Origin: Natrinema salifodinae | GTDB taxonomy: Archaea > Halobacteriota > Halobacteria > Halobacteriales > Natrialbaceae | Reading direction: 5' to 3' | Assembly: GCF_900110455.1 (NCBI RefSeq) | Contig: NZ_FOIS01000002.1 | Span: 806,001 to 870,000 of the forward strand | Length of the DNA: 64,000 nt | Shown here: positions 6,171 to 52,628 of the stretch, piece by piece | Layout of the letters: the number at the start of each line of letters is the position of its first letter | Position numbering within the stretch: the first letter of the stretch is position 1 | Notes under the pieces: model-generated | The model's database searches: none | Told to the model about the DNA's origin: nothing | What the model saw: only the letters and a program-made list of their open reading frames with translations | Program-made: the position numbers and the translations under genes

Positions 6171-7808
6171 TTAGATGTCGGACTCGTTGTCCTCGTCTTC
6201 ACCGAGCTCGGAGTCGGTCTCGTTGTCCTCCTCGTCCGTCTCGTTCATCTCGTCGTCCGACTCGGTGTCCGTGGTCTCGCCGCTGCTGACGTCGTCGAGT
6301 TCGCTCGCGTCGCCGAGCGTGAGCGTGTCGGCGGACGCGTTCTCGATGGTAATCGACGACGCGGAGAGACTGGAGATCGTCTCGCCGGAGCTCTCGGTCT
6401 CCATCTCGTCGGATTCCGTCTCGATCTCAGTCTCGGACTCGTTGTCCTCGGTCTCCGTCTCGTTGTCCTCGGTTTCGGTCTCGTTGTCCTCGGTTTCGGT
6501 CTCAGTTTCGGTGACGTTGTCCTCGGTTTCGGTCTCGTTGTCCTCGGTTTCGGTCTCAGTTTCGGTGACGTTGTCCTCCTCGTCCGTCTCGTTCATCTCG
6601 CTGTCCTCGGTCTCCATGGCGTCGTCGCCTTCCTCGACCGAGTCGACGGACATCGACTCGATGGTTATCTCCTCGACGTCGAACTGCTCGATCGTGAGTT
6701 CCTCGATCTCCTGGGACTCGTTGTCCTCAGTTTCGGTTTCAGTCTCAGTCTCCGTCTCGTTGTCCTCAGTCTCCGTCTCGTTGTCCTCGTCCGTGGCGAG
6801 TTCGTCCTCGCTGTCGTTCGATTCGTTGTCCTCGTCCTCACTGATGTTGAAGCCCTCGTCTTCACTATCGGACTCGTTGTCCTCGTCGTCCATCGCGAGA
6901 CCGTCGCTCTCCTCGGTCTCGTTGTCGTCCGTCTCGGTTTCGTCGGCGTCCTCACCGGCCGTCAGCTCTTCGATGGTCAGCGTCTCGACGTCCATCGTCT
7001 CGATGGTGAGGTTCTGAATCGTGACCTCGCTGGCGTTCTCGTCGATCAGCTGCTCGCTCTCGGTTTCGGACGTGGCGTTGTCCTCTTCGGTCGCGTTATC
7101 TTCGGCGGTGTCAGTCTCGAGACTGTCTTCGGTCTCGTTGTCCTCTTCGGTCTCAAGACTGTCTTCAGTCTCGTTGTCCGCTTCAGTCTCAAGACTGTCT
7201 TCAGTCTCGTTGTCCTCTTCGGTCTCAAGACTGTCTTCAGTCTCGTTGTCCGCTTCAGTCTCGTTAGTCGACTCGTTCATCCCTGCGTCCGAGACGTTAC
7301 CGCCGTCTTGCTCGAGGTCCTCGAGCGATACGCCCTCGAGCTCGAGCTGCTCGAGCTGGATGTCAGAGAGGGTGACTTCCTCACTGGCAGTCTCGTTGTC
7401 CTCTTCGGACTCAAGACCGTCTTCGGTCTCGGATTCGTTATCTTCGGTATCGAGGCCGGTCTCAGTCTCTGATTCGTTATCTTCGGTATCGAGGCCGGTC
7501 TCAGTTTCGTTCTCGCTGTCAGCGGTGTCGCCCTCGTCGAGTTCGTCCTGCAGTTCCTCGACGTCAGCGTCGAACTCCTCGACGTTCAGTTCCTCGATCG
7601 TCGCGTTCTCAACGGTGACGTTATCGAGTTCGAGTGTCTCGACCTGAACGTTCTCCAGTGTCGCACTCGATTCCGTTTCCGCTTCGTCGCCCATGTCTCC
7701 GGCATCGTCGCCCGCACCCGCTGTGGCACCCGCGAGGGCAGGACCCCCCGAGAGTGCGACCAGCAGTGCGACCAGTACGACGCCGAGTTTCTGCGGTCGT
7801 GAAACCAT
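6171..7808 (-). CDS. secreted sequon-rich pentad-repeat protein (copy 1)
   Basis: A 545-aa protein of unknown function. A Sec-type signal peptide occupies residues 1-26 (L-G-V-V-L-V-A-L-L-V-A-L then A-L-A-G-A). Five short blocks have a strict five-residue period (N-V-Q-V-E / T-L-E-L-D / N-V-T-V-E / N-A-T-I-E), as expected of a beta-solenoid. They are separated by Asp/Glu/Thr/Asn linkers. By my count there are more than 30 N-x-S/T sequons, mostly N-E-T and N-E-S, so heavy N-glycosylation is likely if exported. No C-terminal anchor or sorting signal is seen. A paralogue at 51237-52628 shares the signal peptide, the five blocks in order, and the promoter. The serine-rich frames on the opposite strand are shadows. 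Confidence 0.85.
   Translation of the reverse strand: MVSRPQKLGVVLVALLVALSGGPALAGATAGAGDDAGDMGDEAETESSATLENVQVETLELDNVTVENATIEELNVEEFDADVEELQDELDEGDTADSENETETGLDTEDNESETETGLDTEDNESETEDGLESEEDNETASEEVTLSDIQLEQLELEGVSLEDLEQDGGNVSDAGMNESTNETEADNETEDSLETEEDNETEDSLETEADNETEDSLETEEDNETEDSLETDTAEDNATEEDNATSETESEQLIDENASEVTIQNLTIETMDVETLTIEELTAGEDADETETDDNETEESDGLAMDDEDNESDSEDEGFNISEDEDNESNDSEDELATDEDNETETEDNETETETETETEDNESQEIEELTIEQFDVEEITIESMSVDSVEEGDDAMETEDSEMNETDEEDNVTETETETEDNETETEDNVTETETETEDNETETEDNETETEDNESETEIETESDEMETESSGETISSLSASSITIENASADTLTLGDASELDDVSSGETTDTESDDEMNETDEEDNETDSELGEDEDNESDI
7121..7264. repeat. four 36-bp tandem repeats inside the copy-1 linker
   Basis: Four head-to-tail 36-bp units start at 7121, 7157, 7193 and 7229. 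Each encodes twelve residues E-D-S-L-E-T-E-(E/A)-D-N-E-T on the minus strand and each carries one sequon. Units alternate between Glu and Ala at one codon. The repeats are coding and contiguous. Confidence 0.9.
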
Positions 7809-34405: not shown

Positions 34406-36589
34406 TCAGTCGTCGCCCGCGGGATCGGCCGGCTCGCCGAGCGGTTCGACGTCGACGTCGATCTCCGCGGCGGCGGCCTTGTACTCGGGAATCTTCGCCC
34501 GCTCGTCGAGTACGTGGTTCGTGAGCTTGTTCGCCGAGGCGGCGGCGAAGTGCGGCGTCGTCCAGACTACGCCCTCCTTGGTGTCCTCGGTGACGTGGGC
34601 CTCGAGCGTGATCTCGCCGCGGCGGGAACTGAGCCGGACGTACTCGCCGTCCTCGATGCCGTACCGGTCGGCGTCTGCGGGGTGGACGTCGACGAAGTTC
34701 TCCGGGGTCTGGCGGTTGAGCGTCGACGACCTGGTGCTCATCGTCCCGGTGTTGTAGTGTTCCTCGAGTCGCGCCGTCGTGAGGATCAGCGGGTACTCCT
34801 CGTCCGGCGTCTCCGCCGGGGGCTGGTGCTCGACGCCCTCGATGTGCCCGAGCCCGCTCTCGGTGTCGAACTCCTCGGCGTAGAGGTACGGATCGCCCTC
34901 GTCGCCGGGCTCGTAGCAGGGCCAGTGTAGGCCCCCCTTGCCGAGGCGGTCGTAGGTCATCCCGTGGTAGATAGGACAGACCTGGCGAAGTTCCTCGAAG
35001 ACCGCTTCGGGATCGTCGAAGTCGAACCCACCGCCGGACCCCGTCCGGCTCTCCGAGGAACCTCGGTCCTCGCTCTCGTCAAAGAGACGCGTCCCGACCT
35101 CGCTCAGAATTTCGAGGTCGTGCTTGGTGTTCTCGTGGACTTTCCCGACGCCGCGCATCCGCTGGACGCGGCGGTCGGTGTTGGTGACGGTGCCGCCGCG
35201 CTCGGCCCAGGTCGTCGCCGGCAGGATCACGTCGGCGTACTCCGCGGTCTCGGTGGGGAAGATGTCCTGGACGACCACGAACTCGAGATCCTTGAGCCGC
35301 TCGGCGACGCTGTTGGCGTCGGGCTCGCTCATCACGGGATTCTCGCCCATGACGTACAGCCCCTTGATCGAGTCGCCGGCCTCGTAGGAGATCTCGACGT
35401 TCGTGAGCCCCGGCTCGTCGGGGACCTCGAAGCCCCAGACCTCCTCGACGGACTCGCGAGCCTCGTCGTCGTCGACGAGCTGGTAGCCGGGGAGTACGTT
35501 CGGCATCGCGCCGACGTCGCTGGTCCCCTGGACGTTGTTCTGGCCGCGCAGCGGGTTGACGCCGGTGCCGGGCCGGCCGAGGTTGCCCGTGATCAGCGCC
35601 AGGTTGATCTCGTTTTGCACGTTGTCGACGCCGCAGGCGTGCTGGCTCATCCCCATTCCGGTGAAGATGGCCGCGTTGTCGGCCGTGGCGTACTTCTCCG
35701 CGGCCAGTTCGATGTCCTCGAGCGGGACGCCGCACTCCTCGGCCGCGGCCTCCTTGTCGAAGCCCTCGAGGGTCTCTACGAGGTCCGCGAACCCCTCAGT
35801 GCGCTCTTCGATGAACGCCTCGTCGATCCAGCCCTCGTCGGGGTTTTCCTCGTGTTTCTCGAGGATCGTCTTGAGGACGATGTTCAGCAGCGGGATGTCC
35901 GTCCCCGGATTCAGCTGGAGGTGCATGTGGCGGTCGCTGTCGTCGATCCCGAACGACCGCGTCGTCTTGTTCGCGTGCGGGTCGACCTGGATGACCGTCG
36001 CGCCGTCCAGCACCGCCTGGCGGAAGTACTGGCTGTTGGCGATCGGGTGTTGCTCGCCCGGGTTCGCCCCCTGAATCCAGAAGACGTCGGCCTCCTCGCG
36101 GAGGTCGCGCATGCTGTTGGTCATCGCGCCCGCGCCGAGGCTGGTCCGCAGCGCCCAGACCGTCGAGGCGTGGCACATCCGCGTGCAGTTGTCGACGTTG
36201 TTGGTGCCGTAGCGCCTGGCGAGCTTCTGGAGGAGGTAGTTCTCCTCGTTCATCGTCTTCGAGGAGCCGAAAAAGCCCATCGCGTCCGGGCCGTACTCCT
36301 CGCGGATGCGCTCGAGTTCGTCGACGACGTACTCGAAGCACTCCTCCCAGGTGGCCTCGCGGAACTCGCCGTCCTCCTTTAGCAGCGGGTCGGTGAGCCG
36401 ATCCTCGTGGTCGATCACCTCCGTCGCCGCGCCGCCCTTGATACAGACGCGCCCCTCGTTGACCGGCGCGTCGCCCCACGGCATAAATCGGACGTCGCTC
36501 GGTTCCTCGCCCTGTTGGATCTGGATGCCGCACCCGACCCCGCAGTACGGACAGATCGTCTTGACTGGATCTTGCTGATCACTCGACAT
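34406..36589 (-). CDS. fdhA: molybdopterin formate dehydrogenase alpha subunit
   Basis: A 727-aa DMSO-reductase-family enzyme that oxidises formate to CO2 using bis-MGD. The N-terminal [4Fe-4S] site is C-P-Y-C-G-V-G-C (Cys 13, 16, 20) plus Cys about 49. The catalytic ligand is probably Cys about 139 in T-R-M-C-H-A-S-T. W-I-Q-G-A-N-P-G and R-G-Q-N-N-V-Q-G-T-S-D-V-G fit FdhF-type enzymes, and the C-terminal cofactor-binding beta-barrel follows. There is no Tat signal, so it is cytosolic. No beta or gamma subunit lies nearby, so the acceptor is unknown. Codons near residue 510 include a paired-hairpin insert (35033-35066). mobA is 0.8 kb away on the other strand. Confidence 0.88.
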   Translation of the reverse strand: MSSDQQDPVKTICPYCGVGCGIQIQQGEEPSDVRFMPWGDAPVNEGRVCIKGGAATEVIDHEDRLTDPLLKEDGEFREATWEECFEYVVDELERIREEYGPDAMGFFGSSKTMNEENYLLQKLARRYGTNNVDNCTRMCHASTVWALRTSLGAGAMTNSMRDLREEADVFWIQGANPGEQHPIANSQYFRQAVLDGATVIQVDPHANKTTRSFGIDDSDRHMHLQLNPGTDIPLLNIVLKTILEKHEENPDEGWIDEAFIEERTEGFADLVETLEGFDKEAAAEECGVPLEDIELAAEKYATADNAAIFTGMGMSQHACGVDNVQNEINLALITGNLGRPGTGVNPLRGQNNVQGTSDVGAMPNVLPGYQLVDDDEARESVEEVWGFEVPDEPGLTNVEISYEAGDSIKGLYVMGENPVMSEPDANSVAERLKDLEFVVVQDIFPTETAEYADVILPATTWAERGGTVTNTDRRVQRMRGVGKVHENTKHDLEILSEVGTRLFDESEDRGSSESRTGSGGGFDFDDPEAVFEELRQVCPIYHGMTYDRLGKGGLHWPCYEPGDEGDPYLYAEEFDTESGLGHIEGVEHQPPAETPDEEYPLILTTARLEEHYNTGTMSTRSSTLNRQTPENFVDVHPADADRYGIEDGEYVRLSSRRGEITLEAHVTEDTKEGVVWTTPHFAAASANKLTNHVLDERAKIPEYKAAAAEIDVDVEPLGEPADPAGDD
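35033..35066. repeat. paired perfect hairpins inside the formate dehydrogenase gene
   Basis: The first hairpin has arms GCCGGAC and GTCCGGC with a CCC loop (35033-35049). Three bases later the second has arms CCGAGG and CCTCGG with an AA loop (35053-35066). On the coding strand the region reads R-G-S-S-E-S-R-T-G-S-G-G, a small-residue linker. The same two-hairpin architecture is found in the aldehyde oxidoreductase gene at 48348-48386. Confidence 0.75.
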
Positions 36590-38162: not shown

Positions 38163-38477
38163 ATGACCGACCAGGCGACCACCGACGAGGACCTGACCGA
38201 CTTCCTGATCCTGCGATCGCTCGACGAACCGATCACCGCGGACGAACTCGAGGCCGCCGGCGAGCAGTCCGGCCAGGCGCTCTCGGAACTGCGCGACGAG
38301 GACGTCGCCATCCGCTGGGTCGAATCGGAAGTGATGACCGACGAGGACGGCCGGGTTACGGGCACGTTCTGTCACTACCGGGCCGAGGGCGAAGACGCGA
38401 TCCGCGAGCACGCCGATCGGGCCGGACTGCCCGCGACCCGAATCGATCGACGCGGAGCACCCCTCGAGGGGGAGTGA
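38163..38477 (+). CDS. DUF4242-family protein (putative metal-binding)
   Basis: A 104-aa ferredoxin-like protein. D-F-L-I-L-R-S-L-D-E-P-I-T-A-D-E-L at the start, I-R-W-V-E-S-E-V-M-T-D near 47, G-T-F-C-H-Y-R-A-E-G-E-D-A-I-R-E-H-A near 66 and A-G-L-P-A-T-R-I near 86 fit DUF4242. One studied member (Streptomyces SCO4226) binds nickel. The Cys-His pair in F-C-H-Y may be a ligand. It is preceded by a palindromic operator and followed 257 bp later by a CobW metallochaperone. Confidence 0.75.
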   Translation: MTDQATTDEDLTDFLILRSLDEPITADELEAAGEQSGQALSELRDEDVAIRWVESEVMTDEDGRVTGTFCHYRAEGEDAIREHADRAGLPATRIDRRGAPLEGE

Positions 38478-40516: not shown

Positions 40517-41683
40517 TTACGGTTCGAGCAAGACTTTGATGACGCCTTCTTCGCGCTCGTCGAACTTCTCGTACATCTCCGGCGCCTGCTCGAGGTCGAC
40601 GCGGTGGGAGACGACCCAGCTGGGGTCGGCGCGCCCCTCGATGATCATGTCTCGCAGCTCCCGATTGTACTGCTTGACGTTCGTCTGGCCGGTACCCAGC
40701 TTCAGTCCCTTCTCGAAGGCCTTGCCGAAGTCGATCCCGAGTCGGCCCTGGGCCGCCATCTCGTCGGGAGCGCCGGGGTCCGACGGGACGTACAGTCCCG
40801 GAATGCCGAGATTGCCGGTCGGACGGATGGTCTGGATGAGCTGGTTGAGTACGATCGCGGGGTTTTCTCGGGCCGGATCGTAGGCGTCGTCGGTCGGATC
40901 GGTCTCGGGGTCGATCGCTTGATACCCGACGGCGTCGACGCCCGCGTCCACGCCGCCGCCGTGGGCGTCTTTGATCTGTTCGACGGGATCGCTCTCCTCG
41001 AAGTTGATCGGGCGGGCGTCGCAGTGGTCTTCGGCCAACTCGAGGCGACTCTCGACGCGGTCGACGACGTAGATCTCCGATGCGCCCTGGATCTTGGCGC
41101 TGTAGGCGGCCATCAGGCCGACGGGGCCGGCCCCGAAGATCGCGATCGATTCGCCCGGATCCAGGTTCGCGAGTCGGGTACCGTGCCATCCCGTCGGGAA
41201 GATGTCCGCGAGGAGCGCGAAGGCGTCCTCGTGTTCGTCGCCCTCCGGCAGTTTCAGCGCGTTGAAGTCGGCGTACGGCACCCGAAGTTTCTCGGCCTGG
41301 CCACCTTTGTACGGCCCCATCGCGACGTACCCGTACGCGCCGCCGGCGAAGCCGGGATTGACGTTGGTGCAGAAACCGGTGTAGCCGTTCTCACAGTTCC
41401 GACAGAACCCGCAGGCCACGTTGAACGGCATTACGACGCGGTCGCCCTCTTCGAGCGTCGTGACGGCGTCGCCGACCTCGCTCACGATTCCCTGGTTTTC
41501 GTGACCGAAGACGATCCCCGGATCGGCCGAGGTTCGCCCCTCGTACATGTGGAGATCCGAGCCACAGATGCACGTCGTCGTGATGTCGACGATAACGTCG
41601 TTCTCGTGTTCGATCTCAGGTTCATCGACCTCTTCGACGGCGACATCGTGCGGTCCCTGATATACGACGGCGTTCATTGACAT
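40517..41683 (-). CDS. zinc-dependent alcohol dehydrogenase, formaldehyde-dehydrogenase (FdhA) type
   Basis: A 388-aa medium-chain dehydrogenase. The catalytic zinc site is formed by C-I-C-G-S-D-L-H and F-G-H-E, and the structural zinc site by C-G-F-C-R-N-C ... G-F-C. The NAD fold is I-F-G-A-G-P-V-G-L-M-A. The longer insert near residues 225-300 and T-G-W-H-G-T-R-L are typical of the glutathione-independent formaldehyde dehydrogenase group, which oxidises aldehydes with tightly bound NAD. Start placed at M-S-M-N-A-V-V-Y. It is divergent from a GlcG/HbpS gene and 0.7 kb from the quinoprotein operon, so it could handle the aldehyde formed there. Confidence 0.85.
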   Translation of the reverse strand: MSMNAVVYQGPHDVAVEEVDEPEIEHENDVIVDITTTCICGSDLHMYEGRTSADPGIVFGHENQGIVSEVGDAVTTLEEGDRVVMPFNVACGFCRNCENGYTGFCTNVNPGFAGGAYGYVAMGPYKGGQAEKLRVPYADFNALKLPEGDEHEDAFALLADIFPTGWHGTRLANLDPGESIAIFGAGPVGLMAAYSAKIQGASEIYVVDRVESRLELAEDHCDARPINFEESDPVEQIKDAHGGGVDAGVDAVGYQAIDPETDPTDDAYDPARENPAIVLNQLIQTIRPTGNLGIPGLYVPSDPGAPDEMAAQGRLGIDFGKAFEKGLKLGTGQTNVKQYNRELRDMIIEGRADPSWVVSHRVDLEQAPEMYEKFDEREEGVIKVLLEP

Positions 41684-41842
41684 TTGGTATCGACCCTCAG
41701 TGAACCGTCCACAGACGCCGTTGTAAATGTTCGTGTGACTGCCGCCGTTCATCAACGCTCGTGTGACTGGAGAGTACCGCCGCTTGATGACTCCAAAATA
41801 TACTCACATCAATCGAATATATTATGTTTTTTACAATGGATA

Positions 41843-42431: not shown

Positions 42432-43892
42432 TCAGTCGCCGTTCGTTTCGTTGCCCTCCGCCTCGGCGGTCTCGTTACCGTCCCCGGTCTCGTTTCCGTC
42501 CATGTCTGCGGTCTCGTTACCGCCCATCCCGTCACCGCCCCGTTCGATCTCCTCTTGCTGGATCTCGCCCGTCGCTTCGGTTTCGCCTTGAACGGTGATC
42601 TCGCCGACCGCATCGAGTTGCGACTGATCGAGGTAGACGCCCATATCCTCTTGGGCGACGAATTCGACGGTCTGGGTCTCGCCCTCCTCGCTGGTGAAGT
42701 TCGACCGGACGTACGTGCTCCACTCGTTGGTGTCGCCGCCGCTGGCGATCACGAAGTTGTGGCCGGGCAGCGGTTCGAAGGTCATGTTTTCCGCTTCGGG
42801 CTGGTGACGACCGAGCGCGTTCTCCCACTCGACCGCGTACGTCTCGCCCGCCTCGAGTTCGAGCGGCGGGTTCTCCTCGTCGGCGATATCATCGGGTTCG
42901 ACGCCGACCCACTGGCCCTCCTCGAGCGCGAACGAGTAGGTCTCGGTCGGGTCACCCGTTTCGATCGCCGGGACCGTGACCGTGACCTCCTGACCGTCGC
43001 CGTCGACCGACACCGTGTCGGTGACCCGTTCGTGGCCGTAGGTCCAGACTTCGAGGTTGTACTCGCCGTCCTGGAGCATATCGAACCGGGCGACCGCCGG
43101 CGCGTCCTCCTCGGCCGGCGTCTCTTCCTCTTGGGCGCCGCCCATGTCCGATTCGTTTCCGGCCGTTTCGTTTCCGGCCGTTTCGTTTCCGGCCGTTTCG
43201 TTTCCGGCCGTTTCGTTCCCTCCCGTCTCGTTCCCGCCCGTCTCGTTTCCGCCTTCGTCGTCGCCTGGCTCCCGTTGGGACTGTTCCTCCTCCGGCGGGG
43301 CGGGTCGCGCGGCGATATCGGAGAACGCGTGGTACTCCTCGGAGGGGGTCCTGAGGAACACCTCGGCCTCGAGGGGGTTCCCCTCCTCGTCTTCGACCTG
43401 AACCCGGAGTTCCCGGACCTCGTCCGGACTGACCAGTTCGACCGGGCCGCGCATCTGGACCGGGTGCGGCATGCAGTAGTACTCCGCCACTCCCTCTTCG
43501 GGAGTGAACGTGAGCGAGGTGGATTCGCCTTGCTCCTCGACGAAGTCCGTCGCTTCGACCACCTCGCCGTTCTCGTCCTCGAGGACGAAGTTGTGCCGCG
43601 AACCGTCGCCGTTCGTCCAGACGACTTCGTTTTCTTCGCCTTCGATCAGTCGCAGCGTCGGGTTGGAGGCGCCGTCGATTTCCGCCGGCGCGACGCCTTG
43701 CCAGCCACCGACGAGACCCACTAACGAGAGCGTCCGTCCCTCTCCGTCGTTCTGCGTAGCCGGAAGCCGGAAATCGATCTCGTCGCGGTAGGCGCCAGCG
43801 GTGCCGGCCATCGCAGCCGTGCCGGCGATCGCCGCCCCCTTCAGTACCCCGCGACGGGAAACGTCTTCGCGTGATTGCTTTTCGTTTGACAT
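42432..43892 (-). CDS. Tat-exported two-domain cupredoxin
   Basis: A 486-aa exported electron-transfer candidate. The Tat signal is S-R-R-G-V-L-K-G-A-A-I-A. Cupredoxin domain one (about 50-155) has a full type-1 copper site: His 100 (S-R-H-N-F), Cys 140, His 143 and Met 147 (Y-Y-C-M-P-H-P-V-Q-M). A linker of seven G-G/A-G-N-E-T pentads (about 213-248) follows. Domain two (about 315-435) repeats the fold and keeps a G-H-N-F motif but lacks the Cys/His/Met ligands. The C-terminal tail again is N-E-T-rich. It is the last gene of the quinoprotein operon, 25 bp after the dehydrogenase, and is its likely electron acceptor. Confidence 0.88.
   Translation of the reverse strand: MSNEKQSREDVSRRGVLKGAAIAGTAAMAGTAGAYRDEIDFRLPATQNDGEGRTLSLVGLVGGWQGVAPAEIDGASNPTLRLIEGEENEVVWTNGDGSRHNFVLEDENGEVVEATDFVEEQGESTSLTFTPEEGVAEYYCMPHPVQMRGPVELVSPDEVRELRVQVEDEEGNPLEAEVFLRTPSEEYHAFSDIAARPAPPEEEQSQREPGDDEGGNETGGNETGGNETAGNETAGNETAGNETAGNESDMGGAQEEETPAEEDAPAVARFDMLQDGEYNLEVWTYGHERVTDTVSVDGDGQEVTVTVPAIETGDPTETYSFALEEGQWVGVEPDDIADEENPPLELEAGETYAVEWENALGRHQPEAENMTFEPLPGHNFVIASGGDTNEWSTYVRSNFTSEEGETQTVEFVAQEDMGVYLDQSQLDAVGEITVQGETEATGEIQQEEIERGGDGMGGNETADMDGNETGDGNETAEAEGNETNGD
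43152..43253. repeat. seven 15-bp tandem units encoding the cupredoxin linker
   Basis: Units of ttcgtttccggccgt repeat at 43152, 43167, 43182 and 43197 without change, then three diverged units follow. Each gives one N-E-T or N-E-S sequon on the minus strand, so the linker is likely glycosylated. Recent expansion is implied by the identical copies. Confidence 0.9.
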
Positions 43893-43917: not shown

Positions 43918-45627
43918 TCAGGCGTCCATCGAGAACACGGCGAGCGTGTCGCCGCGATCTCCCTGACGGAGCCAACCGCTGCCGCCGACCTGGACGGCGA
44001 CGTACTGTTTCTCCTCGCCGGGGTCGTACCAGCTCATCGGCGAGGCGCTGATCGGCACGTCGAACTCGTACTCCCAGAGGCGGTCGCCGCTCTCGCCGTC
44101 GTAGGCGACGAGGACACCGTTCTGGGTCCCGTTGAACACGAGTCCCGTCGCGGTCGACATCGAGCCGCCCCACATGTAGTACTCGTCTTCGCTCTCGATC
44201 CAGTCGCGCCAGACGCGCTCGCCCGTCGCCGGATCGACCGCCGCGAAGGCGGTGATCGAGTCGTTCCACTCGTCGGGGAACTCCTCGGCCGGATCGGCCA
44301 GGCCGCCGCCCCAGTAGGGATTACCCTCGCTGTACTCCTCGTACCGCCAGTAGAGGTCCTGCGGGTAGTTCTGGTGGACGACGTACACGTACCCGGTCTC
44401 GGGGTTGTACGACGGTGGCTGCCAGTCGTTGCCGCCAGGCGCGCCGGGGACGAACGGGACGCGTTCGTCCTCGCTGATGTGGGGAATCATCTCCCACATA
44501 TTGATGTGTTGGCAGATCTCCTCGCTGCGTTCGTGGAGTTGGCCGGACTCGGCGTCCATCATGTACACCCAGCCGGTCTTGTCGGACCCGACGACCATCT
44601 CCGACGGCCCGTCGTCGACGTCTACGTCGCGCAACAGCACTCGCGGCGCGACCGCGTCGTAGTCCCAGACGTCGTGCGGACTGCTCTGGAAGCCCCACTG
44701 GAACTCGCCGCTCTCCAAGTCCAGCGAGATGGTCCCACAGGTGGGGAAGTTCGGTCCCGGCCGGACCGTCCCGTCGAAGTCCGGTCCGGGATTCGCGACC
44801 GCCGTGTAAAGGACGTCCCGCTCCTCGTCGATCGTCGGCGTCATCCAGGTCGTGCCGCAGCCGTGCTCGCGGCTCTGGCCGATCCACTCGTCTTCCGGGA
44901 GCGTATCGTTCTGCCAGAGCATGTCGCCGCTCTCCGCGTCGAGCGCGGCGACGAATCCGAGGACGCCGTACTCGCCGCCGGCGCTGCCCGTGTAGATCGT
45001 CCCGTCGTAGATCACTGGGGCCCACGTCGCGGAGTACCCGACTTCGTGTTCGCCGGTACTCGTGTACCACTCCTCTTCGCCGGTGTAACGGTCCAAGGCG
45101 ACGACGCCCGAGTCGAGCGTCGTCATGTAGACCTTGTCGCCGTAGACGGCGGCGCCGCGGTTGTTGTCGTCGCAGCACAGCTCGACGCCCATCGGAACCG
45201 CGTAGGTGTAGCTCCAGAGGACCTCCCCCTCGCGGGGGTCGATCGCCTTCATGTGGTTCGGGCCGTTCGTCTGGTACATGACCGGGGGATCGCCCGGAAC
45301 GACGATCGGCGTCCCCTCCATGCTCGAACCCGTCCCGACCGACAGCTCGTACTCGAGTTCGAGATCGTCGACGTTGTCGGGCGTGATAGCGTCGGCGGTC
45401 GTGACTCGATGTTGCTCGTAGTTCCCGCCGTACATCAACCACGACCGGGGATTCTCCCCGGTATTACTCAGCATCTCCTGGTCGACGTCCTGCTCAGGAA
45501 TGCGCTCGGGATCGTGCTGCTCGGTGATCGATTCCTCGGGGCCCCCGACCAGCGTATAGCCGTCCTCGATCTCTCTCAGTTCGATGTCTCGGGCGGCTTG
45601 TACCGCCTTATCGTTGCGAAGTGCCAT
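43918..45627 (-). CDS. PQQ-dependent quinoprotein alcohol dehydrogenase, DYD (lanthanide-type) motif
   Basis: A 569-aa eight-bladed propeller protein of the methanol/alcohol dehydrogenase family. The vicinal cysteines over PQQ are C151-C152 in E-L-C-C-D-D-N-N-R-G. Active-site counterparts are Glu 219 (G-G-E-Y-G-V), Trp 261, Asn 279 (A-N-P-G-P-D) and catalytic Asp 322 in H-D-V-W-D-Y-D-A. Asp 324, two residues on, is the extra lanthanide ligand known from XoxF-type enzymes; calcium-type MxaF has Ala there. Lys 350 replaces the usual Arg. Repeated W-motifs (G-E-V-L-W-S, G-E-E-E-W-Y, G-D-M-L-W-Q, G-E-F-Q-W-G, G-D-R-L-W-E) mark the blades. Unusually no signal peptide is visible. It starts 6 bp after the unknown 309-aa gene. 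Confidence 0.88.
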   Translation of the reverse strand: MALRNDKAVQAARDIELREIEDGYTLVGGPEESITEQHDPERIPEQDVDQEMLSNTGENPRSWLMYGGNYEQHRVTTADAITPDNVDDLELEYELSVGTGSSMEGTPIVVPGDPPVMYQTNGPNHMKAIDPREGEVLWSYTYAVPMGVELCCDDNNRGAAVYGDKVYMTTLDSGVVALDRYTGEEEWYTSTGEHEVGYSATWAPVIYDGTIYTGSAGGEYGVLGFVAALDAESGDMLWQNDTLPEDEWIGQSREHGCGTTWMTPTIDEERDVLYTAVANPGPDFDGTVRPGPNFPTCGTISLDLESGEFQWGFQSSPHDVWDYDAVAPRVLLRDVDVDDGPSEMVVGSDKTGWVYMMDAESGQLHERSEEICQHINMWEMIPHISEDERVPFVPGAPGGNDWQPPSYNPETGYVYVVHQNYPQDLYWRYEEYSEGNPYWGGGLADPAEEFPDEWNDSITAFAAVDPATGERVWRDWIESEDEYYMWGGSMSTATGLVFNGTQNGVLVAYDGESGDRLWEYEFDVPISASPMSWYDPGEEKQYVAVQVGGSGWLRQGDRGDTLAVFSMDA

Positions 45628-45633
45628 TTAAAA

Positions 45634-46563
45634 TCACCTCAGTTCGCTCGGCGCGCGTTTCTCGTCCGTGATGTAGAACACGTCGTGCAACAGCTCTTCC
45701 TGGCTGATGATCTGGACGGCCGCGCCAGCGGTGAACGCGGCTGTCAGCTGTTCGTCCGTGAACCGGTCTTCGCCCTCGCCCCCGCCGGCGAGATCGCAGG
45801 CGGCGGTCGCCGAGACGAACAGCCCGCCCAGCATCGCCTTCACGTACCTGGCCGCGTCGTCGAGGATGTCGTCGGTGACGAGCACCTCGTTCTGCCAGAG
45901 GTGCCTGTCCAGCCCGTTGATCCACAGCAGGACGCCGCCCATCGCGCGCTGATGAAGCGGCGGCACGTTTTCGGTGTCGAACTCGACCCCGTCGGGGATC
46001 TGGTTCGAGGGGACCCAGCGCGCGAGTCGCTCGTCGTTGTTCGCGACCGCCGTTAGAATCGCCGTCTTCTCCGATTCGTCGAACCCGACATCGTCGAGCG
46101 CCGCCGACAGCGGCTCGGTCAGGACCAGTTCGCGCGTCGTGTGCTCGATGTGGTCCGCCGTGAACCGCGGCAGGTTCTCGTCTACACTCTCGAAGAAGCC
46201 GACATCGAGCAAGTGGTCGTAGAGGTGCCAGCCCGGTGCCGCTACCTCAGTATACAGTCCCTCAGGTACGTCGGGGACGCCGACATCGCGGACGGCCGAC
46301 AAGCGTTGGATCTCGTCCGCAACGTTCTCGCGCTCCCGTTCGATCAGTTCGCGGTCGAGTTGCGCCCCGAGATCGGCTCGGATTGCTTCCCCGCAGGAGG
46401 CCAGCGCCGAGTCGGTCTGCGATTCGACCTTCCCTGCGAGCGAGTCCCACGTGAGAGGACCGTCCCCCGGTACATCGACTCCGAGTCTCGTCGTCAGGTC
46501 ACGCCGGTCCGCAACCGTCGTTCGTGACGCAGTGCGTATTTGTTTCATGCTACCACTGCACAC
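45634..46563 (-). CDS. unknown helical protein, first gene of the quinoprotein operon
   Basis: A 309-aa (or 304-aa from the ATG at 46548) acidic helix-rich protein of no family I recognise. Features are R-L-G-V-D-V-P-G-D-G-P-L-T-W near residue 27, P-G-W-H-L-Y-D-H-L near 110, H-I-E-H-T-T-R-E-L near 138, L-L-W-I-N-G-L-D-R-H-L-W-Q-N-E near 219, a hydrophobic helix A-M-L-G-G-L-F-V-S-A-T-A-A-C near 253, and Q-E-E-L-L-H-D-V-F near 290. No signal peptide or clear membrane span. Its stop is part of the ribosome-binding site of the dehydrogenase, so the two are coupled. A chaperone, export partner or accessory subunit is possible; nothing proves it. Confidence 0.7.
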   Translation of the reverse strand: MCSGSMKQIRTASRTTVADRRDLTTRLGVDVPGDGPLTWDSLAGKVESQTDSALASCGEAIRADLGAQLDRELIERERENVADEIQRLSAVRDVGVPDVPEGLYTEVAAPGWHLYDHLLDVGFFESVDENLPRFTADHIEHTTRELVLTEPLSAALDDVGFDESEKTAILTAVANNDERLARWVPSNQIPDGVEFDTENVPPLHQRAMGGVLLWINGLDRHLWQNEVLVTDDILDDAARYVKAMLGGLFVSATAACDLAGGGEGEDRFTDEQLTAAFTAGAAVQIISQEELLHDVFYITDEKRAPSELR

Positions 46564-46772: not shown

Positions 46773-47543
46773 TCACCGGTCGGCAGCCGACGCCGGCGTC
46801 GCGACGAGCACGAGATACGGCTCGTCGGACCGGCCGCGCTCGATCCGATCGACCGTCTCGATCCGAAAGCCCGCCGCCGACACGCGCTCCCGCCAGTACC
46901 CCTCCGGCTCGCGATCGACGCCGTCGGGAACCAGCGGGAGTTCGAGCACGCCGAGCGTCCCGTCGGGCTCGCAGACGCGCCGGCTCTCACGCAGCGTCCG
47001 ATCGACGTCCCGCGCGTCGAGGTCGTGGAGAACCCGACAGGCGGTGACGACGTCGACCGAATCGGTCGCCAGCGGCAGCGCCGCCGCGTCACCGGCGATC
47101 GGTTCGACCGCCAGGCCGGCCCGCGTTCCGTTCCGGCGCGCGAGCGCCGGCCCGTTGCCGAAGATGACCCGATCGTCGAAGACGTCGAGGCCGATCACGG
47201 TCCGGCCAGGCGGGACGTGAGGTGCGAGTCCGACGAGCGAGCGCCCGGTCCCGCAGCCCACGTCGAGGATCCGATCGGCGCGATCGAGCGGGAGTCGCGC
47301 CGCGAGGGCGTCGTACTTGCCGCGTTCGATCGCCCACGGCGGCGGGGAGAGCAACGATTCGAGTATCGTGCCCGCGTGGACGGCCGCCCCCGTCGCGACG
47401 AGACCCGCAGCGAGCCGCCCGCGGGAATCGTCAGTCCGCCGCCTGGCGACGAGCGCGAGGACGGCGACGGCGATCGCGGCGCCGACCGCCCGGCATCGCC
47501 GCCGCCAGTGGTACAGACCGAAGTTGTATCGAACGGGGAGCAT
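46773..47543 (-). CDS. class I SAM-dependent methyltransferase with N-terminal membrane segment
   Basis: A 256-aa protein. The first 65 residues hold two hydrophobic stretches (A-V-G-A-A-I-A-V-A-V-L-A-L-V and A-A-G-L-V-A-T-G-A-A-V-H). The methyltransferase core follows: motif I I-L-D-V-G-C-G-T-G-R-S near 92, motif II G-L-D-V-F near 118, and the post-I acidic region D-A-A-A-L-P-L near 150. Substrate unknown. A similar membrane-anchored methyltransferase group is common in haloarchaea. It lies between the quinoprotein operon and the aldehyde oxidoreductase, in the same direction. Confidence 0.82.
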   Translation of the reverse strand: MLPVRYNFGLYHWRRRCRAVGAAIAVAVLALVARRRTDDSRGRLAAGLVATGAAVHAGTILESLLSPPPWAIERGKYDALAARLPLDRADRILDVGCGTGRSLVGLAPHVPPGRTVIGLDVFDDRVIFGNGPALARRNGTRAGLAVEPIAGDAAALPLATDSVDVVTACRVLHDLDARDVDRTLRESRRVCEPDGTLGVLELPLVPDGVDREPEGYWRERVSAAGFRIETVDRIERGRSDEPYLVLVATPASAADR

Positions 47544-47594
47544 CGTCACTCTCGAGGGGTGAGAAATGAGAAACCGTGACGCGATCGGCGGCGA

Positions 47595-49577
47595 TCAGTC
47601 GTCGCTCGGTGCCGCGGCACCGCCCTCGCCCGTGCTGACGCCGGTACCGGGGCCGATCTCGATTCCAAGGTCGTCGAGTTTCTCGTCGGGGACGACGCCG
47701 TCGACCCAGCCGCGGTAGTCGTAGTACTCCTCTTTCATCCGCTCGAGCTCGCAGTACTCGCCCTCGGAGGCGCCCTGGCCGGGGATACCGTCCGCGAGGA
47801 AGCGGTCCGGCAGCGAGTCGTCGGTCCCGTCGAACCCGGCGAGGTTGTTGTAGTAGCGCTCCAAGTTGTAGACCCGTTCGCCGGCCTCGAGGAGGTCGTC
47901 CTCGGTGACGTCGCGGCCGGTCATCCCGTTGTACTGGGTGACGTACTCCTCGATGCCCTCAGCGAAGGCGTTGAACTTGCAGATGTCGAAGCTGTCGGAG
48001 ATGGCGTGCAGATCCTGGAACTGGGCGGTGAGCTCGCCCTTGCCCTCCCACTCGTAGGGGTCGACCTTCTCGGGAATGCCCAGAATCTCGGCGGCGGGCG
48101 TGTACCCGCGCAGGTGGCAGGCCCCGCGGTTTGAGGTGGCGTAGCCGATCCCCATGCCCTTCATGCAGCGGGGGTCGTAGGCCGGAATCGTCTGGCCCTT
48201 GACCGCCAGGGAGTTCTCGCGGGCGTCTCGCATCTCCGCGATCCGGTCGGCGCCCTCGGCCAGGAGGTCCGCCAGGTCGTCCTCGCGGTGAGCGATCCGC
48301 TCGATCATGTCGACCATCTCCTCGGAGTCGCCCCAGTCGAGGCCAGCGTGGGACTCTGTCCCACGAGCAGACGGGCTTTGCCCGTCGACATCGTTGAGGT
48401 CGTCGAGTTTGCCCTCCTCGGTCATCTCCATGGCCATCGCCATCATGTTGCCCACTTCGATGGTGTCGACGCCCATGTCGTTACAGCGGTCGATCATCAG
48501 GGCGATGTCGTCGCGGTCGGTGTGGCCGGAGTTCGGGCCGAGCGCGAACGCCGACTCGTACTCGTAGGACTCCGTCCGGACGTTCATCTCCTCGCCCTTG
48601 TGCATCGCCTGAACTTCGACCTCCTTCTTACAGGCGACCGGACAGGAGTGACACGTGGGTTCGTCGACGAGGATGTTCTCGCGGACGTTCTCGCCGGAGA
48701 CCTGCTCGGAGTCGAACTCGTCGCCGGCCCAGCCGTCGTCGCGGGCGTCCCCGGTCGAGGTGTACTTCCCGTTGCGCGTCGGGAGCCCGGACATCTCCTC
48801 GGTGAGGTTCATCAGGACGTTCGTCCCGAACTTCGAGAGCCCGCCCTCGTTGGGCGCGGTGACCTCCGACTCTTGGATGGCCTGCATCGCCTGCTGGTGA
48901 CCCTCCCGGAACGTCTCCGAATCGGCCGGTTTGGGCATCCGCGTGTTCGACTTGACGACGACCGCCTTGAGGTTCTTCGAGCCGGCGACGCAGCCGGTGC
49001 CGCCCCGACCCGAGGCGCGGTCGTCCTCGTTCATGATCGTGGCGTAGCGAACCTGATTCTCGCCACCGGGACCGATCCCCATGATGCTCAGGTTCTTGCC
49101 GTAGGAGCCCTCGACCTCCTCTTCGATCGCGTCGCGGGTTTCGTGGAAGCCCATCCCCCAGAGGTGCGAGGCGTCCCGAAGTTCGACCTCGCCGTCCTCG
49201 ACGACGGCGTAGACCGGTTCGTCCGCCTGGCCCTCGAAGAGTAGGCCGTCGAAGCCGGCCCACTTGAGTCGGGCGCCCGACCAGCCGCCCTGGTGGCTGT
49301 CGGTGACGGTGCCGGTCAGCGGCGATCTCGTACAGACGGCGATCCGGCCGCTCATGGTCACTTGGGTGCCCGACAGCGGGCCGTTCATGAACGCGAGCAG
49401 GTTGTCGGGTCCGAGCGGATCAACGTCCGGTCCCTGTTCGAAGACGTACTTTACCCCCAAGCCGCGCGCACCGATATACTTCTTCGCGTCCTCGTCGTCG
49501 ATCGACTCGTACGCGACCTCCCCGTCCGAGAGATCGATGCGAGCGACCCTATCTTGGAATCCACCGAGTTCGGTCAT
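47595..49577 (-). CDS. aor: aldehyde:ferredoxin oxidoreductase (tungsten AOR family)
   Basis: A 660-aa AOR-family enzyme that oxidises aldehydes to acids with ferredoxin, using tungsten bis-pterin. N-terminal G-A-R-G-L-G-V-K-Y and N-G-P-L-S-G-T bind cofactor. The [4Fe-4S] ligands are Cys 309, 312 and 316 in P-T-C-H-S-C-P-V-A-C and probably Cys 533. G-R-G-G-T-G-C-V-A-G-S-K-N-L-K-A near 190 and M-K-G-M-G-I-G-Y-A-T-S-N-R-G near 472 are family signatures. An odd linker (G-Q-S-P-S-A-R-G-T-E-S-H) near 400-410 is encoded by a paired-hairpin insert. Upstream lies a perfect inverted repeat. It could remove aldehydes made by the neighbouring dehydrogenases. Confidence 0.92.
   Translation of the reverse strand: MTELGGFQDRVARIDLSDGEVAYESIDDEDAKKYIGARGLGVKYVFEQGPDVDPLGPDNLLAFMNGPLSGTQVTMSGRIAVCTRSPLTGTVTDSHQGGWSGARLKWAGFDGLLFEGQADEPVYAVVEDGEVELRDASHLWGMGFHETRDAIEEEVEGSYGKNLSIMGIGPGGENQVRYATIMNEDDRASGRGGTGCVAGSKNLKAVVVKSNTRMPKPADSETFREGHQQAMQAIQESEVTAPNEGGLSKFGTNVLMNLTEEMSGLPTRNGKYTSTGDARDDGWAGDEFDSEQVSGENVRENILVDEPTCHSCPVACKKEVEVQAMHKGEEMNVRTESYEYESAFALGPNSGHTDRDDIALMIDRCNDMGVDTIEVGNMMAMAMEMTEEGKLDDLNDVDGQSPSARGTESHAGLDWGDSEEMVDMIERIAHREDDLADLLAEGADRIAEMRDARENSLAVKGQTIPAYDPRCMKGMGIGYATSNRGACHLRGYTPAAEILGIPEKVDPYEWEGKGELTAQFQDLHAISDSFDICKFNAFAEGIEEYVTQYNGMTGRDVTEDDLLEAGERVYNLERYYNNLAGFDGTDDSLPDRFLADGIPGQGASEGEYCELERMKEEYYDYRGWVDGVVPDEKLDDLGIEIGPGTGVSTGEGGAAAPSDD
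48348..48386. repeat. paired perfect hairpins inside the aor gene
   Basis: Hairpin one has arms GTGGGAC and GTCCCAC with a TCT loop (48348-48364). Hairpin two has arms GACGGGC and GCCCGTC with a TTT loop (48370-48386). Five bases separate them. The insert keeps the aor frame open and encodes a Ser/Gly/Ala-rich loop between two conserved helices. This looks like a small palindromic mobile element that has been tolerated in a coding region. Confidence 0.8.
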
Positions 49578-51236: not shown

Positions 51237-52628
51237 ATGGTTTCACGACCGCGAACACTCGGTGTCGCGTTCGTTGCCGTGCTCGTCGTGCTCGCGGGGG
51301 GTCCCGCCCTCGCCGGTAGCACGACCACGAGCGCGGCCGCGGACGACGATGCCGGAGACATGAGCGCACCGAGCGCGACGCTCGAAAACGTACAGGTCGA
51401 GACGCTGGAACTCGAGAACGTCACCGTCGAGAACGCGACGATCGAGGAACTCAGCGTTCAAGAGCTGGGCATCGAGGACAGCGAGGAACTCGAACAAGAA
51501 CTGAACGATACCGAAGACGGGGGCGAAGACAACCAGTCCGAGGGCGACGAGAACCAAAGCGATGGCGCTGAGAACCAGAGCGCCGAGGGAGATAACCAGT
51601 CCCAACAGGAAGTGACGATCTCAGACGTCTCCTTCGAGACGCTGGCCCTCGAGAACGTTTCTGTCGACGATCTCCAGACCGACGGAGGCGGCATGGACGG
51701 TAACCAGACCGATGCCGGCAACGAGTCGGAGGACGGTAACCAGACCGACGCCGAAGATGGCAACGAGTCAGCCGAAGACGGTAACCAGACCGAAGCTGAT
51801 GGCGGCAACGAGTCGGAGGACGGCAACCAGTCCGCCGAAGACGGCAACGAATCGGCCGAAGACGGCAACGAGTCGACCGGGATCGACCAGGTGATCGGCG
51901 AGGACGCCGACAACGTGACGATCCAGGACCTGACGATCGAGGAGATGAACGCCGAACAGCTGACGATCGAGAACCTCAACGTCGAGGAAGACGAGGGCGG
52001 CATCCTCTCGGGTATCTCCGACTTCGTCGGCGGTCTGTTCGGCGGTGACGGCGGCGACGGTGGCGATGGTGGCGACGGCGGCGACGGCGGCGCGAACGAG
52101 TCCGACGCCGGCGGCGAAGAGATCGAGGCGCTGACCATTGAGCAGTTCGACGTCGACGAGATCACCGTCGAGACGATGGACGTCAACACCCTCGAGAGCC
52201 AGGACGGCGGGAACCAGACGGCCGAAGACGGCAACGAGACGGAAAACGAGACGAACGAAACCGACGACGAGGCGGCCGCAGGCGAAAACGAAACTGACGA
52301 GGGCGAAGACGGTAACGAGACCGAAGCCGATGGCGGCAACGAATCGGCCGAAGATGGCAACGAGTCAGCCGAAGACGGCAACGAAACCGCCGCGGACGGA
52401 GCTGAGGGCGAGACGATCTCGTCACTCTCCGCGGGGACGATGACGATCGAAAACGTCACCGCTGATACCGTTTCCCTCGGCGAAACAGAGGGGCTACAGG
52501 ACGCACTCGAACAGCAACAGTCCGACGGCGGCAATCAGACCGACGACGGGAACGAATCTGACAACGAGTCAGACGGGGGCGGCGGCAACGAGTCTAACGG
52601 CGGCGACGAGGGCATGGCACTCGGCTGA
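51237..52628 (+). CDS. secreted sequon-rich pentad-repeat protein (copy 2)
   Basis: A 463-aa paralogue of the 6171-7808 protein. The signal peptide (M-V-S-R-P-R-T-L-G-V-A-F-V) and five pentad blocks match in order: V-E-T-L-E-L-E-N-V-T-V-E-N-A-T-I near 55; D-V-S-F-E-T-L-A-L-E-N-V near 130; V-T-I-Q-D-L-T-I-E-E-M near 228; L-T-I-E-Q-F-D-V-D-E-I-T-V near 300; I-S-S-L-S-A-G-T-M-T-I near 395. The linkers differ: here Gly/Asn/Gln-rich with N-Q-S, N-Q-T, N-E-S and a G-D-G run, but still over 30 sequons by my count. There is no C-terminal anchor. Function unknown; secretion and glycosylation inferred. Confidence 0.85.
   Translation: MVSRPRTLGVAFVAVLVVLAGGPALAGSTTTSAAADDDAGDMSAPSATLENVQVETLELENVTVENATIEELSVQELGIEDSEELEQELNDTEDGGEDNQSEGDENQSDGAENQSAEGDNQSQQEVTISDVSFETLALENVSVDDLQTDGGGMDGNQTDAGNESEDGNQTDAEDGNESAEDGNQTEADGGNESEDGNQSAEDGNESAEDGNESTGIDQVIGEDADNVTIQDLTIEEMNAEQLTIENLNVEEDEGGILSGISDFVGGLFGGDGGDGGDGGDGGDGGANESDAGGEEIEALTIEQFDVDEITVETMDVNTLESQDGGNQTAEDGNETENETNETDDEAAAGENETDEGEDGNETEADGGNESAEDGNESAEDGNETAADGAEGETISSLSAGTMTIENVTADTVSLGETEGLQDALEQQQSDGGNQTDDGNESDNESDGGGGNESNGGDEGMALG

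Follow-up and report, generated by a model that had tools for sequence, protein, structure and literature searches.

A haloarchaeal quinoprotein dehydrogenase with a candidate lanthanide-type metal site, paired with an unnamed helical protein

Introduction

The question raised by this locus is whether a halophilic archaeon possesses a quinoprotein dehydrogenase that works with a rare earth metal. The gene concerned lies in a 64,000 nucleotide stretch of Natrinema salifodinae DNA (the window), to which all positions given without a genome or locus label refer. A sequence-only reading had taken the product for a quinoprotein dehydrogenase with a second active site aspartate of the lanthanide type, and had considered such an enzyme notable in a haloarchaeon. 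Our open-access literature search returned no direct report of haloarchaeal lanthanide or PQQ dehydrogenases. There is, however, an archaeal precedent for the motif, as heterotrophic marine Thaumarchaeota have PQQ dehydrogenases, some with DYD, for which a blue copper protein has been proposed as a possible acceptor (PMC7300363). Compared by their description in that paper, the DYD quinoproteins of Thaumarchaeota all lack the vicinal Cys pair, many carry signal peptides or transmembrane segments, and the genomes concerned are reported to contain a PQQ synthase.

The dehydrogenase and its metal site

The open reading frame runs from 45627 to 43918 on the minus strand (43918..45627), begins with ATG and encodes 569 residues, which we take as the catalytic large subunit, a signal-less PQQ-type beta-propeller dehydrogenase. 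Its Pfam match to PF01011 has an E-value of 1.8e-52 (179 bits against a cut-off of 26.7), and the top Foldseek match of its AlphaFold (AF2) model, which has a mean pLDDT of 80.4 and is weak in some site loops, is the lanthanide-dependent PedH (E 1e-38, TM 0.76). Membership of the PQQ alcohol dehydrogenase fold family is supported by both results, and the family named in the earlier reading is borne out. The score with TIGR03075, the NCBIfam model for methanol/ethanol PQQ dehydrogenases, is 368.7 bits and under the cut-off of 480, so the protein is a divergent member of that family. In three otherwise good genomes the dehydrogenase gene looks damaged or split (G202:C1:1316967-1318853, G162:C12:128233-130228 and G192:C1:1281610-1282341), one by a TGA, one by lying in two pieces and one by being a fragment.

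All eight site residues are found at the positions that the sequence-only reading had given. On the minus strand, these are the vicinal pair C151-C152 (45172..45177) and the PQQ-stacking Trp position W261 (44845..44847), both assigned from sequence and conservation; the metal ligand positions E219 (44971..44973) and N279 (44791..44793), for which alignment to PDB chains agrees as well; the catalytic D322 and the lanthanide-type D324, in D322-Y323-D324 (44656..44664); and K350 (44578..44580), assigned from sequence and PDB-chain alignment. The two aspartates stand in the context P-H-D-V-W-D-Y-D-A-V-A. When 28 haloarchaeal homologues were aligned as a profile to PDB chains, the two aspartates fell on the WDFD of PedH (6zcw/6zcv) and the WDYD of XoxF (6dam), whereas the Ca-type enzymes have WDYT (1kb0) or WDFS (1flg) there; site residues of the PDB chains likewise match E219, N279, W261 and the Cys pair. 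By alignment D324, on whose position the earlier interpretation turned, lies inside the metal site, where PedH and XoxF have their lanthanide Asp. Judged from these alignments, the haloarchaeal dehydrogenase appears to have the extra Asp, two residues past the catalytic one, of a lanthanide-type metal site.

Two further positions deserve mention. The lysine at position 350 had been pointed out as replacing an Arg, and PedH and XoxF do have Arg there, but the Ca-type quinohaemoprotein 1kb0 has Lys as well. The substitution is therefore nothing special, neither favours nor disfavours a lanthanide, and was rejected as the sign of a new site. Asp401, which was not among the residues listed earlier, stands where PedH, 1flg, 1kb0 and XoxF all have Asn.

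Across the 48 haloarchaeal sequences that we compared, which make up three subfamilies, D322, D324, W261, N279 and K350 are unchanged in every one, whereas Cys151/152, Glu104, Glu219 and Trp486 vary, with losses in subfamilies II and III. Such invariance beside varying neighbours argues that the DxD is not there by chance. HDVWDYD and the Cys pair are present in all of another 30 loci from the subfamily of the window, a set that includes the window copy itself as L046. Subfamilies II and III (L067-L086) keep the DxD, but most of II and the whole of III have lost the Cys pair along with further PQQ contacts, so that the metal motif is better conserved than the quinone site. In a maximum-likelihood tree all haloarchaeal sequences form a single clade outside the 12 bacterial references (support 100/99), with subfamily III as its first branch, and they do not group with bacterial XoxF or PedH-like sequences; PedH itself was absent from this tree, and its root on the bacterial rows is an assumption. 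Remote matches in other classes of the phylum were partial and below 140 bits, and were left out of the counts.

Among known enzymes, PedH, the lanthanide-dependent ethanol dehydrogenase of Pseudomonas putida (6ZCW/6ZCV), is the best match by both profile and fold. It shares the Cys pair, Glu, Asn and the Asp-x-Asp site, and differs in having Arg for Lys350 and Asn for Asp401; aligned by structure, the two proteins are about 26% identical. The XoxF methanol dehydrogenases (6DAM, 4MAE, 6OC5 and a Sinorhizobium XoxF-like protein in L087) share WDYD and the metal and PQQ site, but form a separate clade in the tree. A signal peptide of its own, which would be expected of a periplasmic enzyme of the XoxF or ExaF/PedH type, is not seen on inspection of the haloarchaeal dehydrogenase.

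We consider the best explanation to be a two-subunit quinoprotein dehydrogenase specific to haloarchaea, its metal site being of the lanthanide type, at slightly better than an even chance; Ln3+, PQQ, an alcohol substrate, a cupredoxin acceptor and the side of the membrane are what we infer within it. The main competitor on the metal is a two-subunit quinoprotein dehydrogenase that uses Ca2+ or Mg2+, its second Asp being tolerated or its metal use promiscuous, which has been proposed for membrane glucose dehydrogenase. A membrane glucose dehydrogenase with DxD is active with Ca, Mg, Zn or Sr, and DxD is widespread among ocean PQQ dehydrogenases, glucose dehydrogenases that use other metals included (PMC11996626). 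DxD is thus insufficient for lanthanide use, and the earlier interpretation is supported in part, for the fold family and for the placing of D324 in the metal site. A scan of window genes turned up no recognisable gene for lanthanide handling, which also suits Ca2+ or Mg2+. However, the closest solved relatives with the Asp (PedH and XoxF) are lanthanide enzymes, the Ca-type ones have Ser or Thr, and D324 is invariant over divergent haloarchaeal subfamilies, so that we regard a calcium or magnesium enzyme as unlikely. Lanthanide dependence of the haloarchaeal dehydrogenase is plausible on this evidence, and a little more probable than its opposite.

The helical partner and export

Directly upstream of the dehydrogenase gene, with 6 nt between its end and the dehydrogenase start, lies an open reading frame of 309 residues (45634..46563, minus strand; likely start Met at 46548) that we take to encode a small helical partner subunit, from its pairing with the dehydrogenase and its all-helix AF2 model (pLDDT 89.7). 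A partner gene immediately precedes the dehydrogenase gene in 104 of 104 cases, in 70 of 392 haloarchaeal genomes, and the two genes co-occur in exactly the same 70. Three further partner genes that seemed unpaired had raised the prospect of another enzyme as their companion; this was rejected, since each precedes a dehydrogenase that the limits of the search had excluded, which brings the total to 107 copies. The exception to the pairing is a contig of a metagenome-assembled genome (L011), which has no partner. A tblastn search of plasmids found the partner in haloarchaea only, and the plasmid records name the two products "PQQ-binding-like beta-propeller repeat protein" and "hypothetical protein". 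This near-perfect pairing ties an unnamed helical protein family to one defined enzyme. One genome has a second dehydrogenase-partner module, 63% identical to its first (L027; G000:C5:101959-104583, L112/L113), and the neighbours of this copy include a NitT/TauT-type ABC transporter (substrate-binding protein, ATPase and permease), a ferredoxin and a CDC48 ATPase.

Searches gave the partner no Pfam or NCBIfam family, no sequence relative in the PDB, and no PDB fold match at E < 0.001. The family has a single invariant His and no conserved metal cluster, and on these grounds a PqqC-like or other enzymatic role was rejected. A relationship to Gluconate_2-dh3 (PF13618) was rejected too, as there is no Pfam match and hhalign gives a probability of 0.7% against the host's PF13618 protein. 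One partner member matched PF12318 (FAD-SLDH) at E 0.09, which is too weak to use. We know of no helical partner gene described for PedH, and the Sinorhizobium XoxF-like locus has genes for cytochrome c and for glutathione-dependent formaldehyde metabolism, without a cupredoxin or helical partner.

The N-termini suggest what the partner may once have done. By inspection, none of the 28 aligned dehydrogenase homologues has a signal peptide; common to them is an extension of hydrophilic character at the N-terminus. In subfamily III, all 8 partners tested begin with a DRRxFLKALGVGGAVAAGG-like sequence, a DRRxFLK-type motif followed by an uncharged stretch of 15-18 residues, and the Pfam TAT_signal model matches 11 of 29 partner members (best 8.4e-4). 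A twin-arginine (Tat) signal on the partner and none on the dehydrogenase is the arrangement throughout subfamily III and in some of II. The motif is eroded almost everywhere in subfamily I, and within subfamily I proper it is intact only in L017. The window's copy has the eroded motif DRRDLTTRLGVD with 5 uncharged residues, and its N-terminus reads DRRDLTTRLGVDVPGDG, without a hydrophobic stretch. The family therefore offers a natural series in which the Tat signal on a partner subunit was lost step by step. Since the deepest haloarchaeal branch has the motif and the branch of the window an eroded form of it, the partner looks like a hitchhiker export subunit, and if the root is right it was once a Tat carrier that has since lost its signal. 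By ancestry, then, it looks like a Tat hitchhiker or assembly subunit. There is a parallel in FAD glucose dehydrogenase, whose gamma subunit is a small helical Tat hitchhiker required for secretion and folding of the enzyme (PMC6719666). The haloarchaeal partner is likewise small, helical and encoded beside a dehydrogenase, with a Tat signal in part of its family; it shows no detectable homology to subunits of the gamma type (Gluconate_2-dh3, PF13618) and no PDB fold match, so the likeness is one of function only.

A destination for the electrons is suggested by the gene directly downstream of the dehydrogenase, after a gap of 25 nt (42432..43892, minus strand; PF00127, E 5.1e-11). It encodes a cupredoxin with a Tat signal (SRRGVLKG) and the type-1 Cu pattern Cys-x-x-His-x-x-x-Met (YYCMPHPVQM), a homologue of which occurs in 13 of 26 loci, and it is the probable electron acceptor of the dehydrogenase. 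At 43160-43260 the same gene has a short tandem run of Gly-Asn-Glu-Thr codons between its domains (NET, possible N-glycosylation sequons). Because the window's partner has only a degraded Tat motif and the dehydrogenase carries no signal peptide, there is no evident route by which this complex could reach an exported cupredoxin. An alternative is that the complex of the window's branch is cytoplasmic, with the signal-less partner as an assembly factor, a cytoplasmic acceptor and either metal. Erosion of the Tat motif in nearly all of subfamily I fits this, as does a branch at about 63% identity in which the cupredoxin is absent and a 2Fe-2S ferredoxin gene lies nearby. The potential of PQQ is, however, too high for ferredoxin reduction; the Tat-signalled cupredoxin still adjoins in the window's branch, and a vicinal disulfide would be unusual in the reducing cytosol. 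We see a cytoplasmic complex as a serious possibility that falls short of probable.

PQQ supply

Our search for the PQQ pathway covered pqqC, pqqE and the SPASM domain. In 40 haloarchaeal carriers, this genome included, there is no pqqC (TIGR02111); the sole match is spurious (17.6 bits, in a frame with three stops), and the positive control, Sinorhizobium pSymB, scores 428.9 bits. None of the 40 has a pqqE (TIGR02109) over the cut-off, the best haloarchaeal score being 139 against 607 bits for the control. The only match of this genome (68.7 bits) was rejected as a PqqE candidate, being by sequence a MoaA-type radical SAM protein. The SPASM domain is absent from this 100%-complete genome and was detected in 8 control genomes. 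Without a recognisable pqqC or pqqE, the host would have to import PQQ or make it by an unknown route, or else the enzyme does not use PQQ.

The last of these choices is a rival reading of its own, in which the propeller is an empty quinoprotein or holds another quinone or cofactor, the host being unable to make PQQ. The results on pqqC, pqqE and SPASM agree with it, as does the loss of PQQ contacts throughout subfamily III and in some of II. The acido-empty-quinoprotein model TIGR04528 also matches the dehydrogenase, at 269.6 bits against a cut-off of 650. Group A of those proteins shares the propeller family, but its profile match is the weaker one, TIGR03075 scoring higher, and the haloarchaeal enzyme has retained the PQQ-site residues: in the window's branch the Cys pair, Glu104, Trp261, Asn279, Asp322 and Trp486 are all in place. 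Moreover, many Gram-negative bacteria with PQQ enzymes import the cofactor rather than synthesise it (PMC12124388). We therefore judge a propeller without PQQ to be improbable.

Neighbouring genes and a possible pathway

Several genes recur around the module. An aldehyde ferredoxin oxidoreductase (AOR; 47595..49577, minus strand, PF01314/PF02730) and a class I SAM methyltransferase (46773..47549, minus strand, from Pfam; found close by in 11 of 26 loci) are joined by a formate dehydrogenase alpha subunit (34406..36589, minus strand; TIGR01591 at 723.6 bits, over the cut-off) and a Zn alcohol dehydrogenase (40517..41755, minus strand, from Pfam and NCBIfam) whose best NCBIfam model, under its cut-off, is glutathione-independent formaldehyde dehydrogenase. 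This company fits alcohol or C1 oxidation, the substrates being suggested by the neighbours. The window also has an SCO4226-like (DUF4242) protein on the plus strand (38163..38477), 70% identical to a Halomarina protein that matches PF14026.

In the two-subunit lanthanide enzyme that we favour, E219, N279, D322 and D324 of the propeller would most likely hold Ln3+ beside PQQ, and the metal would activate PQQ, so that the quinone could accept a hydride from an alcohol or aldehyde, D322 serving as the base. The helical partner would act as a Tat hitchhiker or assembly subunit in the manner of the gamma subunit. The cupredoxin, encoded alongside and exported by Tat, would receive the electrons and feed them into the respiratory chain; the neighbouring AOR, formaldehyde-dehydrogenase-like Zn alcohol dehydrogenase and formate dehydrogenase would oxidise the aldehyde product, and PQQ would be imported or made by an unknown route. 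The computed basis is the family, the placement and conservation of the motif, the strict pairing, the Tat motif with its erosion, and the absence of recognisable pqqC and pqqE. Counted against it are the occurrence of DxD in Ca and Mg enzymes, the lack of pqqC, pqqE and SPASM, the eroded Tat motif, the PQQ contacts lost in subfamilies II and III, and Asp401.

What is new at this locus is the unnamed helical partner paired with a signal-less dehydrogenase, the erosion of the partner's Tat motif, the Tat-signalled cupredoxin, and the absence of pqqC and of a true pqqE. The obligate unknown partner, the missing signal peptide and the missing recognisable PQQ pathway are more surprising than the metal motif itself. 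A doubtful but far-reaching version would be a lanthanide quinoprotein system confined to haloarchaea, cytoplasmic or Tat-carried, in which the helical partners form a new family and the quinone cofactor is acquired or synthesised by a route unrelated to pqqABCDE. If true, it would to our knowledge be the first rare-earth enzyme shown in a cultured archaeon, and lanthanide use would extend rare-earth biology to cultured archaea. Even without lanthanide use, the module is a clean test case of an unnamed protein family tied to a defined enzyme, and it raises the question of the PQQ source in organisms without a recognisable PQQ pathway.

Some minor observations concern other genes of these loci. 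In eight of them (L102 7063-10356, L002, L006, L007, L009, L013, L020 and L023) three consecutive NMT1/THI5-fold proteins and a cupin lie near the module, and in L017 such proteins are found without the cupin. They have no obvious signal peptides and could be enzymes akin to MqnA/MqnD or THI5 instead of transporters, possibly acting on a cofactor or substrate. Within the window, two related proteins with signal-like N-termini and many Asn-Glu-Ser/Thr repeats (6171-7808, minus strand, and 51237-52628, plus strand, the latter without a Pfam family) are 39% identical over part of their length. Beside a subfamily II module, L084 5259-7406 encodes a Tat protein in which a cupredoxin is fused to a GSDH (glucose/sorbosone dehydrogenase, quinoprotein-type) domain, and a Tat protein of equal length with a similar N-terminus adjoins another subfamily II module (L086 5052-7199).
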